Assembly (NCBI RefSeq): GCF_003544855.1
Contig: NZ_CP032101.1
Coordinates: 248,001 to 312,000, forward strand
Origin: Malaciobacter marinus
Lineage (GTDB): Bacteria > Campylobacterota > Campylobacteria > Campylobacterales > Arcobacteraceae
Direction of reading: 5' to 3'
DNA length: 64,000 nt
This document shows positions 17,498-57,892 of the stretch, one piece after another. Both the position numbers and the translations under genes were made by a program. The first letter of the stretch is position 1; each line of letters opens with the position of its first letter. Under the pieces are notes generated by a model. It saw only the letters and a program-made list of their open reading frames with translations, made no database searches and was not told where the DNA came from.

Positions 17498-17526
17498 TTG
17501 ACAAAGGGAAAGAATTTGTCTATAAT
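17498..17526 (+). promoter_or_regulatory. rrn operon promoter
   Basis: TTGACA (17498-17503), 17 bp, TATAAT (17521-17526), then TCCCGTCC: a perfect consensus promoter with a GC-rich discriminator, about 230 bp upstream of the 16S gene. Such discriminators often confer stringent control; DksA is encoded at 25717. Confidence 0.95.
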
Positions 17527-54210: not shown

Positions 54211-55161
54211 ATGAATTTTATTATTATAGGTGCAGGTGGAGTCGGTTCTTTTTATGGAGTTAAATTACTTATGCAAGGACATAATGTAAAGTTTGTAGCA
54301 AGAGGTGAAAATCTAAATTACTTAAAAAATAACAAATTAAAACTTACTCATCCAGATTTTATTTTTGAAGATTATTTAGATGTAATATCAATAGATGAAT
54401 TAAAATCAATTGATGTTAATAGTATAGATGCTGTATTTATTGCAACAAAATCTATGAGTACAAATGAAGTAAGTGAAAAATTATCATTATGGATAAAAAA
54501 TGAAAATAAAATTCCATATTTTATCTCTTTGCAAAATGGGGTAGAAAATGAAGATAAAATGGCAAATTATCTACCAAAAGAGTTTATAATTGGAGGACTT
54601 ACAAGATTAATTGCTGTTCATATAATAAAACAAGGTTTTGTTGAAGCAGTTGGAGAAGTGCAAACTATACTTGGAAGTATAAAGCCAACAAAACATTCAC
54701 AAGAGTTTTTAGAAAAATTAAAAATAGAACTTGACAATGCAAATACTACAACAATTTTAACTAATAATATAAAATTAGAATTATGGAAAAAATTGATTAT
54801 AAATAATGGTGTAAATGCAATATGTACATTACTTGAAGAAAAGTCTGGTACTTTAATAAATAAAGATGAAACTTCAATTTTAGTTTATAATTTGATGAAA
54901 GAAGCAGGGCAAGCATCCCATGCAGTAAAAGTAAATATATCTGAAAGTGATGTTGATGAGATGTTTGAGCTTATGAAAGAATTTGAATCAATAGTTCCCT
55001 CAATGTGGGTAGATAAAAAAAATAATAGAGATTTAGAACTTGATGATATTTGTGGAGTGGTTATAAGAAACTGTGAAAAACAAGGTTTAGATGCACCATA
55101 TACTAGAACAATAGCAACAGTTTTACATTTGCAATATAATAAATTAAGGTTGAAAAAATAG
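54211..55161 (+). CDS. panE: 2-dehydropantoate 2-reductase family protein
   Basis: NADPH-dependent ketopantoate reduction in pantothenate synthesis, or a related 2-oxoacid reductase. 316 aa; nucleotide loop IIGAGGVGSFYG, SLQNGVENED, and catalytic Lys in LWKKLIINNGVNAICTL, plus the C-terminal DICGVVIRNCEKQGLDAP with the family Glu-to-Asp region. AGGATT precedes the ATG. It is monocistronic; the next gene is 297 bp away behind a structured region. Confidence 0.88.
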   Translation: MNFIIIGAGGVGSFYGVKLLMQGHNVKFVARGENLNYLKNNKLKLTHPDFIFEDYLDVISIDELKSIDVNSIDAVFIATKSMSTNEVSEKLSLWIKNENKIPYFISLQNGVENEDKMANYLPKEFIIGGLTRLIAVHIIKQGFVEAVGEVQTILGSIKPTKHSQEFLEKLKIELDNANTTTILTNNIKLELWKKLIINNGVNAICTLLEEKSGTLINKDETSILVYNLMKEAGQASHAVKVNISESDVDEMFELMKEFESIVPSMWVDKKNNRDLELDDICGVVIRNCEKQGLDAPYTRTIATVLHLQYNKLRLKK

Positions 55162-55202
55162 TATTTGAAAAAAAGTTTTAAATTTTTTCAAAAGAGGGTC
55201 AA

Positions 55203-55220
55203 AAGTCATACTAAAGTCAT
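55203..55220 (+). promoter_or_regulatory. Pho-box-like direct repeat at the -35 position
   Basis: AAGTCAT-ACTA-AAGTCAT: two identical 7-bp units with a 4-bp spacer, ending 10 bp before the TATAAT at 55231. This 7-4-7 geometry and placement over the -35 region are those of a PhoB-type activator site. No -35 consensus is present, as expected for activator-dependent promoters. Confidence 0.5.
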
Positions 55221-55230
55221 CTAAATTTAT

Positions 55231-55242
55231 TATAATTCCCGC
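55231..55242 (+). promoter_or_regulatory. TATAATTCCCG promoter core of stable-RNA type
   Basis: TATAATTCCCG repeats the rrn core (17521) exactly and the tRNA core (16732, TATAATTCCG) but for one C. It would start transcription near 55243, the first base of the 17-bp closing stem below. Confidence 0.7.
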
Positions 55243-55373
55243 ATAAGAAGTAAATGTGAAGTATATTTGTTACTACAAAAATATATAAACATAGTGTAAT
55301 TATTATAAACTTATTCTGGATTTTTCTCCCTCTCCATGATTTTTATTATCACATTTACTTCCTTATTCTTTTT
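55243..55373 (+). ncRNA. Candidate structured small RNA or operon leader
   Basis: About 130 nt without a reading frame. The 5' end (55243-55259) pairs with 55349-55366: ATAAG + AAGTAAATGTGA against TCACATTTACTT + CTTAT with a single bulged C, giving 17 bp, followed by TCTTTTTAT as in an intrinsic terminator. Inside lie a weak hairpin (TTTGT / ACAAA, about 55266-55279) and a TGGA / TCCA hairpin (55317-55335) whose loop is the C/U-rich TTTTTCTCCCTC, complementary to ribosome binding sites. It may be a free sRNA, 6S-like, or an attenuator for the following carrier operon. Confidence 0.55.
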
Positions 55374-55458
55374 ATAACAACTTCAAAATAAAAAAATTAT
55401 TATGCCTTATTAAATTCATTTTAGCTATAGTATTATCTTTCAGATTTTAAGGAAAGTT

Positions 55459-56385
55459 ATGTACTTATTTTTTATTCTCCTTGGAAAGATTTTTCCTTTA
55501 TACTTAAATATTATTATTGGATATTTCCTTGCTAAGTATTTTAAAGTAAGAAGAGATATTATTGCATTTTTATTAGTGTATATTTTAGGCCCAATTGTAA
55601 TATTTTTTGCAACTATGTCCATACAAATCAATATTCAAATAGCTTTTTTACCAATATTTATATTTTTATTTGGAAGTGCCATTGCTTTTTATATTCTTAT
55701 TAGGTATAAAAAATATTGGACTGATTCAAGTATTAATACTTTAGCTTTTACTTGTGGTACAGGTAATACTGGATATTTTGGAATTCCTTTAGCTATGATT
55801 TTACTAGAACCTCAAGTTGTAAATATATTTATTTTTGTAACTTTGGCTTCTTTATTATATGAAAATACAGTTGGATTTTATGTTACTGCAAAAGGAAATT
55901 TTACAGCAATAGAATCTATTAAAAAGATATTAAGACTTCCTTTAGTGTATGCTTTTATTTTAGGAATTATATTGAATTTGAATGGAGTAAATACTCCAGA
56001 TTTTGTAATTCCATATTTTGAAAATTTAAAATGGGCATATGGTATACTTGGAATGATGATGCTTGGTATGGGATTAAAAGGGTTTAACTTAGAAGAAGAT
56101 TTTGATAAAAAGTATATGAAAGTAGCCTATTTATATAAATTTGTATTTTGGCCTTTGGCTATGTTAATAATTATTTTTGCTGATAAAACATTTTTCAATT
56201 TTTTAAACGAAGATATTTATAAAGTATTATTTTTAATGTCAATTGTACCTTTAGCAGGAAATACAGTAACTTTAGCTATTTTATTAAAAGCCAAACCTGA
56301 AAAAGCGAGTTTTACTGTACTTTTAAGTACTTTAATATCTGTGATTTATATACCAGTTGTTTTGGCACTTTATGGAGGGTTTTAA
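55459..56385 (+). CDS. AEC-family carrier, copy 1
   Basis: 308-aa inner-membrane protein of the auxin-efflux-carrier family, about ten helices. Bacterial members carry malonate, malate or other organic acids. Landmarks are LNIIIGYFLAKYF near the N-terminus, CGTGNTGYFGIPLA (near 96-109) and MSIVPLAGNTVTLAILLKAKPEKASF near the end. It is clearly paralogous to the carrier at 56963. AAGGAAAG precedes the ATG. Its terminal codons contain GGAGGG, the ribosome binding site of the next gene, so translation is coupled. Confidence 0.88.
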   Translation: MYLFFILLGKIFPLYLNIIIGYFLAKYFKVRRDIIAFLLVYILGPIVIFFATMSIQINIQIAFLPIFIFLFGSAIAFYILIRYKKYWTDSSINTLAFTCGTGNTGYFGIPLAMILLEPQVVNIFIFVTLASLLYENTVGFYVTAKGNFTAIESIKKILRLPLVYAFILGIILNLNGVNTPDFVIPYFENLKWAYGILGMMMLGMGLKGFNLEEDFDKKYMKVAYLYKFVFWPLAMLIIIFADKTFFNFLNEDIYKVLFLMSIVPLAGNTVTLAILLKAKPEKASFTVLLSTLISVIYIPVVLALYGGF

Positions 56386-56386
56386 G

Positions 56387-56962
56387 ATGAAGAAATTATA
56401 TTTATTTATATTTGTATCATTTTTTGTAAGTGGATGTATTAGTTTTAACATAAATAATATAAAATTGCCAAAGAAAACCTTAGATTTAAAGAATAGCAAA
56501 ACTATTGCTACTTTTCACCCTTGTGCAAATTTTTCATATATATCAAATGTAAATGATAAAGAGTATGGAAAACTATTTATTGAGTATATAAACTTAGATA
56601 ACAATTGTAGCTGGAATGGATTTGAAAGAGGTTTTTTTGAAGAACTATTTAAACAAACACTTAAAATAAAAAGTATGAAAATTGTAGAGCAGTATGATTT
56701 TGATACATATGAGTTTACTACATATTTAATAAACAATAACTCTTATGTAAATCTTATTTTTGTTTATGGTGTTAATAGTTCAAAGTTTATCTTGGATTAT
56801 GAGGGTAGACTTTCAAAAGAGCTAATAAGTAAATATAAGCACTCTTATAAAAGTGAGTATATAAATAAAAAAAGATTTTTAGAAAATTATGATAAAAGTT
56901 TGGTAAAAATGGCAAACTTTTACTCTTACTTTTCTAGAGAAAGCAATAGGTATTTAGATTAA
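56387..56962 (+). CDS. Unknown lipoprotein between two AEC carriers
   Basis: 191-aa lipoprotein with lipobox VSGC (Cys17), and Ile at +2, so probably outer-membrane. I do not recognise a family. The mature part is mixed alpha/beta with two further Cys (in FHPCANF and NNCSW) that could pair. I chose ATG 56387, 1 bp after the stop of carrier 1, because GGAGGG lies 8 bp upstream; the frame opens at 56357 but that would remove the signal peptide from the terminus. The next carrier starts directly after its stop. Confidence 0.82.
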   Translation: MKKLYLFIFVSFFVSGCISFNINNIKLPKKTLDLKNSKTIATFHPCANFSYISNVNDKEYGKLFIEYINLDNNCSWNGFERGFFEELFKQTLKIKSMKIVEQYDFDTYEFTTYLINNNSYVNLIFVYGVNSSKFILDYEGRLSKELISKYKHSYKSEYINKKRFLENYDKSLVKMANFYSYFSRESNRYLD

Positions 56963-57892
56963 ATGAGTCTGTTTTTTATATTATTATTGAAAATTACGCC
57001 TTTGTATATAAATATATTACTTGGCTATTTAAGTGTAAAGATTTTAGAAGTAAAAAAAGAATCAATTGCAAAATTGATTATTTATATAATAACTCCTGTT
57101 GTGGTTTTTTCTTCAACTATTAGTGTAAAAATAGATTTTAGCTTGGCAATTATGCCAATATTTTTTTATCTATTTTGTTCTTTTACTGCAATTATTGTTT
57201 ATAATATTTTTAAAAAGCATTGGAGTGATGCTACTTCAAATATTTTAGCTTTTAATGCAGGAACAGGAAATGCAGGCTATTTTGGTATTCCTTTGGCTGT
57301 TTTATTTTTTGAACCTCATATTGCAGATATTTATATTTTTGTTCAATTAGCATTTATTTTTTATGGAAATACAACAGGGTTTTATATAACTGCAAAAAGT
57401 AATTTTACTGTTAGAGAATCATTAATAAAGGTTTTTAGATTACCAGTTGTTTATGCTTTTATTCTTGGACTTTTATGTAACTTATTTGGCGTAAAAATAC
57501 CAGAAGAGTTATTTGTATATACTTCACAATTTAAAGGTGTATATGGGATTTTGGGGATGATGATTTTAGGTATGGGATTAGTTGGATTAAAAAAGAGTGA
57601 GGATTTAGATAAAAAATTTATCTTTTTAAACTTCTTTTTTAAATATGTATATTGGCCAGGAATGGTTATTTTATTTATATATATAGATAAAACAATAATA
57701 CATTTTATAAATGATGAAGATATTTATAAAGTAATGTTTTTATTCTCAATTGTTCCTATTGCAAATAATGGAGTTACTTTAGCTATTATAAATGGAATAA
57801 AACCTGAAAAAGCTACTTTTACGGTTTTATTAAGTACCATATTTTCAATAGTGTATATTCCTATTATGATAGTTTTATATGGAGGATTTTGA
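56963..57892 (+). CDS. AEC-family carrier, copy 2
   Basis: 309-aa paralogue of the carrier at 55459, sharing long identical stretches (for example AGTGNAGYFGIPLAV against CGTGNTGYFGIPLAM, GFY-TAK-NFT, and the YGGF end). About ten helices. It starts directly after the stop codon of the lipoprotein gene (0-bp gap). The three genes form a tight unit, and the tandem copies may form a heteromer or have diverged in substrate. Neither substrate can be read from sequence. Confidence 0.88.
   Translation: MSLFFILLLKITPLYINILLGYLSVKILEVKKESIAKLIIYIITPVVVFSSTISVKIDFSLAIMPIFFYLFCSFTAIIVYNIFKKHWSDATSNILAFNAGTGNAGYFGIPLAVLFFEPHIADIYIFVQLAFIFYGNTTGFYITAKSNFTVRESLIKVFRLPVVYAFILGLLCNLFGVKIPEELFVYTSQFKGVYGILGMMILGMGLVGLKKSEDLDKKFIFLNFFFKYVYWPGMVILFIYIDKTIIHFINDEDIYKVMFLFSIVPIANNGVTLAIINGIKPEKATFTVLLSTIFSIVYIPIMIVLYGGF

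Follow-up and report, generated by a model that had tools for sequence, protein, structure and literature searches.

A conserved, probably noncoding RNA of Malaciobacter and its predicted operator, which associates with C4-dicarboxylate and fumarate-respiration genes across the Arcobacteraceae

In PhoB-type promoters, the half-sites of the Pho box follow one another at a distance of one helical turn, close upstream of the -10 element, and activators of the OmpR family usually have their tandem half-sites where a -35 box would stand. In the small RNA RepG, a C/U-rich loop is thought to pair with a G-rich mRNA leader. RepG is described as a small RNA of Helicobacter pylori (PMC8295292), and Campylobacter jejuni, of the same phylum, is reported to be without Hfq and ProQ (PMC8687705; for Hfq, also PMC3656092). 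The aspA, dcuA, and dcuB genes of C. jejuni are described as governed by the two-component system RacRS (PMC5293742). Among arcobacters, 42 response regulators are listed for A. butzleri (PMC2147049), and a further paper states that the other regulators of Arcobacter have no reported functions (PMC6682613). Among the best literature matches listed, no title names an RNA or an operator such as those described below, and none names a small RNA controlled by RacR; no paper was found that pairs the term "sRNA" with Malaciobacter.

We analyzed a segment on the plus strand, positions 55243–55373, of a 64,000-nucleotide stretch of the Malaciobacter marinus genome (hereafter, the window, which spans bases 248001–312000; the genome is 2.9 Mb in a single contig). 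The segment, whose extent is that drawn in an earlier note made from the sequence alone, lies between two genes of the same strand: an ApbA/PanE-type reductase gene (panE-like; 54211–55161; TIGR00745 above cut-off) and an AEC-type carrier gene (55459–56385; PF03547 above and TIGR00946 below cut-off). The AEC gene is followed by a small possible lipoprotein gene in the open reading frame list (56357–56962) and by a second AEC-like gene (56963–57892) whose product is 54% identical to the first. No open reading frame of at least 60 amino acids in the list for the window runs across the segment. The 131-nt segment has a predicted fold energy of -23.7 kcal/mol, compared with -13.2 ± 2.5 kcal/mol for dinucleotide shuffles (z = -4.2), and none of 200 shuffles folds as well. 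Together with a conserved core, these data bear out the earlier proposal of a structured RNA in a gene-free segment: the prediction from sequence of a structured, conserved, probably noncoding RNA at 55243–55373 is strongly supported.

The ends of the segment had been described as joined by a 17-bp stem with one bulge. Such a stem is present in the predicted fold (5′ arm, 55243–55259; 3′ arm, 55349–55366; 17 pairs plus one bulge), but only its inner 13 pairs, from 55247 inward, are kept in all six Malaciobacter genomes, one G-C pair being G-U in one of them. The outer pairs appear in the single-sequence folds of three genomes only (G000, which is the window's own, G001, and G003). Within the closing stem, a predicted inner hairpin (arms, 55315–55320 and 55333–55339) presents the loop UUUUUCUCCCUC at 55321–55332, a putative pairing site that is mostly unpaired in the predicted fold and invariant in the six genomes. 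Among the 35 predicted pairs we find no compensatory change and a single G-C to G-U substitution, in six copies that are near-identical; covariation cannot be shown because the stem hardly varies across them, the lack of compensatory changes that the earlier note named as refuting carries no weight for the same reason, and the predicted helices are those favored by folding energy alone. The AT-rich window holds 91 pairs of inverted repeats with a length of 13 nt or more, so a long-range inverted repeat by itself is not rare there, and the closing stem is not among the 25 pairs listed. The U-tail that had been noted after the stem exists in the window's genome as a run of five or six T but is not a conserved feature: The run recurs in G005 and is broken or absent in the other four genomes (two of six in total), and a terminator scan finds no intrinsic terminator at the RNA.

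There are substantial differences in conservation along the locus. Pairwise identity of the 114-nt core (55247–55360, plus strand) is 97.4%–100% across all six Malaciobacter genomes, compared with 75.9%–90.3% for the AEC gene (third codon positions, 59.2%–79.0%) and 71.5%–86.6% for panE (third codon positions, 54.4%–74.1%) in the same genomes. The five-genome alignment shows no variation in 111 of the 114 core columns; invariant columns number two of 40 before the operator described below, 18 of 60 downstream of the core, and 18 of 38 directly ahead of the AEC gene. This pattern suggests that the whole RNA molecule is under strong purifying selection. All six copies are flanked by the same two genes, on the same strand, with AEC downstream, and the RNA is present in the records Malaciobacter halophilus DSM 18005 and "Arcobacter sp. 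CECT 8985". In the draft genome G003, a contig break falls inside the RNA, and the two flanking genes are on two contigs; about 97 nt are common to the ends of these contigs (G003:C73 and G003:C78), perhaps as an effect of the inverted repeat.

Conservation of this strength could in principle reflect a small protein gene, and a frame of 39–48 codons starting with GTG does run across the core and is open in G001, G002, G004, and G005 (a count that leaves out G003, whose copy was too short to judge). An extra A nevertheless ends this frame after 10 codons in the window's genome, whose core otherwise matches those of G001 and G003 exactly. The differences among the cores shift the frame or change residues, none being synonymous, and the start codon would lie inside the predicted closing stem. 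We consider a protein-coding role very unlikely.

The promoter region of the RNA consists of two conserved elements. A -10 box, TATAAT, is located at 55231–55236 (plus strand; six of six columns invariant in five genomes), and its position predicts a transcription start near 55243, in agreement with the start proposed in the earlier note. Upstream is a predicted operator at 55202–55222 (plus strand) with half-sites AAAGTCAT and AAAGTCAY, 11 bp apart: The direct repeat AAAGTCATACTAAAGTCAYCT, with its 11-bp period, ends 8 nt before TATAAT and occupies the -35 place. The operator is without mismatch in all six Malaciobacter genomes, identical but for one Y, and 20 of its 21 columns are invariant in five genomes. 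Operator and -10 box are conserved in the five-genome alignment, and the surrounding spacer is not. A third AGTCA is present 10 nt upstream of the operator in G005 and G002.

The promoter had earlier been likened to those of rRNA operons. This holds for the -10/discriminator sequence TATAATTCCCG in this species, which has only two copies in the window, at 17521 (the rrn promoter) and at 55231; it fails for the rest of the promoter, since the rrn promoter of the window has TTGACA where the RNA promoter has the direct repeat, and since TCCCG is absent from the RNA promoter in the other five Malaciobacter genomes. Membership of the Pho regulon was considered and rejected, the half-site of the pstS promoter in the window's own genome being different by eye. 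Upstream of the 350-aa pstS-like gene of that genome (L036) there is an 11-bp direct repeat, GTAACC-N5-GTAACC, before TACAAT, which is likely a Pho box.

The RNA itself appears to be specific to Malaciobacter within the family genomes examined. BLAST against 150 genomes, including the window's own, gives long matches in the six Malaciobacter genomes; matches of 24–52 nt in 17 genomes of other genera were taken as AT-rich noise. A covariance model built from the six copies and run on 104 family genomes recovers the same six and three weak matches (G073, G017, and G078), placed within coding genes or opposite them and judged chance. There is no credible copy in the 98 other family genomes by this search, whose strict filters and near-identical model sequences would allow a diverged relative to escape. 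Phages and plasmids give no match to the RNA, and neither does IMG/VR when searched with one exact 23-nt pattern. No family of Rfam 15 lies on the RNA at the gathering score; at E-values up to 10, there are only two matches, both upstream of the RNA and on the other strand.

These searches bear on the earlier suggestion of a 6S-like RNA, which has not survived them. The RNA might be a 6S paralog by its stem-closed shape and, in this species, by sharing the -10/discriminator of the rrn promoter, but the 6S model RF00013 has no match at the RNA even at an E-value of 10, and the RNA is found in one genus only. Moreover, a separate, full-length 6S candidate lies elsewhere in the same genome, directly upstream of a gene that by eye is purD-like (G000:C1:1442462-1442637, minus strand; sub-threshold, 24.3 bits, E = 0.0076). 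The RNA is almost certainly not a second 6S RNA.

We searched 104 family genomes for the layout of the operator, defined as AAGTCAY-N4-AAGTCAY, with its half-sites 11 bp apart, plus a loose -10 element 8 nt on, allowing at most two mismatches. The layout has 81 matches in 51 genomes, compared with 13 for a reversed-pattern control; the site at the RNA, from which the pattern was drawn, matches without mismatch in all six Malaciobacter genomes. Among the 81 matches, G048:C1 and G035 were left out, and five Malaciobacter rows were already known. The 72 sites read comprise 49 outside open frames of at least 110 codons and 23 inside such frames, the latter taken as chance, perhaps wrongly in the case of L284, which precedes a DASS-like gene. 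For about 11 of the 49, the downstream gene is out of reach or of unclear function. From the 49, 32 were hand-picked for a site table, as illustration only. An operator match in G031 lies inside a coding gene, and those in G083 and G016 look like gene ends or coding DNA; these were set aside. In G068, a response-regulator gene follows a site with a different half-site, GTTAC, and this site was not used as evidence.

By HMM, the genes sampled behind these sites include aspartate ammonia-lyase (aspA; L230 and L269, the latter a partial gene below cut-off), fumarate reductase cytochrome b (frdC; L239), DcuC in the window's own genome (L266), DctP (L255), a DASS carrier (L089), an SDF/DctA-like carrier (L264, below cut-offs), a TAXI binding protein (L276), formate dehydrogenase gamma (L090), a hydrogenase small subunit (L259), a CLC channel (L233), and two Cache-domain sensors, probably chemoreceptors (L265, in the window's own genome, and L240). 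N-terminal likeness alone adds ten DASS carriers, one aspA, one frdC, two DctP, two sensors, three formate dehydrogenases (one partial), an SDF carrier, a CLC channel, and two genes resembling those for amino-acid binding. Genomes of genus g6 carry this operator, followed 8 nt on by a -10-like hexamer, ahead of a DASS gene in G048 and G059 and ahead of a formate dehydrogenase gamma gene in G038 and, by likeness, in G063. Sites in the window's own genome precede the RNA, dcuC, and a sensor gene and, with three mismatches allowed, a peptidase-like gene beside dcuC. As judged from predicted sites, the operator is associated family-wide with genes for C4-dicarboxylates and fumarate respiration. 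The operator is new here and provides a candidate map of a C4-dicarboxylate/fumarate regulon for the Arcobacteraceae, to which the RNA would have been added in one genus.

A candidate for the protein that binds the operator comes from 19-kb stretches taken around eight operator sites. In the Malaciobacter genome G001, the order is frdC-frdA-frdB-[site]-aspA-DcuA/B carrier-asparaginase-histidine kinase-OmpR-type regulator-SDF carrier (frdC by likeness), and in G158, of genus g11, it is [site]-aspA-histidine kinase-regulator-SDF carrier. The kinase and OmpR-type regulator pair thus lies between aspA or asparaginase and the SDF carrier gene in both (L295:1228-5375 and L296:10572-14409). Identity between the two regulators is 65%, and a PF04392 domain is present in each of the kinases. 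In a third genus (G071, genus g6), a frame-broken gene of this regulator family lies right after an operator site (L289:599-999; two pieces with 60% and 46% identity). This broken gene is located between trxA-like and trxB-like genes, where G048 and G059 have the DASS gene.

The regulator query finds no match in four of the eight stretches (L293, L294, L297, and L298). One of these, L293, is from the window's own genome; it holds, directly before dcuC, a paralogous kinase that shares 51% identity with the G001 kinase (L293:4461-6638, equal to G000:C1:2596460-2598637), and no match to the regulator in its 19 kb. At the DctP sites of G010 and G007, the adjoining regulators (L299 and L255) share only 27% and 35% identity with the one in the aspA cluster, which counts against one single regulator for all sites. 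By association, the aspA-cluster regulator is a candidate binder of the operator at 55202–55222.

Our preferred reading, to which we give a probability of about 0.5, is that the segment is an RNA gene of about 115–130 nt within the C4-dicarboxylate regulon, switched by the regulator and acting in trans through the loop at 55321–55332. A phosphorylated OmpR-family regulator of a C4-dicarboxylate/aspartate two-component system would bind the two 11-bp half-sites and switch transcription from TATAAT on or, with less likelihood, off, so that the RNA would share its control with the regulon's carrier, aspA, frd, and sensor genes. The molecule would fold with its ends closed by a stem, presenting the invariant loop UUUUUCUCCCUC, which most likely would pair with Shine-Dalgarno regions of mRNAs and lower their translation.

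G-rich Shine-Dalgarno regions are complementary in sequence to the loop. In the six genomes, the complementary string GRGGGAGAA shows no enrichment, with 117 matches compared with 134 for the reversed control. Seven of the 117 are the RNA itself. Of the remaining 110, a permissive filter for start regions retains 26, and many of these plainly lie within genes. In the window's genome, the start region that matches best, GAGGGAGAAAGA, belongs to a gene that by eye is acetolactate-synthase-like; pairing with the loop is complete for G000 and G003 but only partial for the remaining four genomes, and the gene is a candidate target only. The lack of enrichment and the full pairing of the best target in only two of six genomes count against action in trans, as does the lack of a conserved terminator, which is unusual for a free-standing small RNA. 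In its favor, a -10-like hexamer, TATAGT, lies before the AEC gene (55426–55431, plus strand) as a possible separate AEC promoter. A hexamer of the form TATA-T is found near this distance in all six genomes, although such hexamers are common by chance in AT-rich DNA.

In the main rival reading, the operator may instead drive the AEC operon directly, and the RNA may be the conserved part of a 216-nt 5′ leader that acts in cis, with control of AEC through a ligand, a protein, or processing, and perhaps with release of a small RNA. We hold this tentatively, as a possibility of real weight. The RNA keeps the same strand and the same AEC neighbor in six of six genomes, no conserved terminator separates the two, many of the other genes behind the operator encode carriers, and the conservation covers the whole fold rather than a short seed. 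The linker between RNA and AEC is, however, poorly conserved (18 of 60 columns), and pairing of the loop with the AEC start is near or above the shuffle mean in four of six genomes; it is better than shuffles clearly only in G002 and slightly in G000. Around AAGGAAA in the AEC start region (window positions 55415–55465, and the same place in L003), a hairpin of its own is possible, stronger in G001.

Comparison of AEC loci also argues against a general leader of these carriers: The element accompanies AEC in six of six Malaciobacter genomes but in none of 24 loci of other genera, where the strings of both stem and loop are missing (the G003 locus, L053, misplaced because of an early contig end, was left out of this count). 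With this absence and a T-run that is not conserved, the idea that the RNA is an attenuator of AEC working as an intrinsic-terminator switch is not supported. An aptamer-like AEC leader is a further variant: The two-component system would sense C4-dicarboxylates outside the cell, and the RNA would sense an inner metabolite or protein before AEC is made, perhaps acting in trans as well when cut free. We regard such a two-step sensor as improbable and keep it in view because the whole fold, and not only a seed, is near-totally conserved. Overall, we favor action in trans over the AEC leader; the two could also hold together, with the RNA cut from the leader.

Set against the described systems, the operator of the RNA resembles PhoB-type promoters in the spacing of its repeated half-sites, one helical turn, and in their position directly ahead of the -10 element, and it differs from them in the half-site itself. 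Like 6S RNA (RF00013), the molecule has its ends closed by a stem, and it differs in having no match to the 6S model. RepG is also a small RNA of the Campylobacterota thought to use a C/U-rich loop on a G-rich leader; the likeness is by description only, and the RNA described here has another operator and a long closing stem. The RacRS regulon of C. jejuni is likewise described as a two-component control of aspA, dcuA, and dcuB in low-oxygen fumarate metabolism (PMC4456614, PMC5293742). This likeness is one of regulated genes, and the candidate regulator proposed here itself sits in an aspA cluster.
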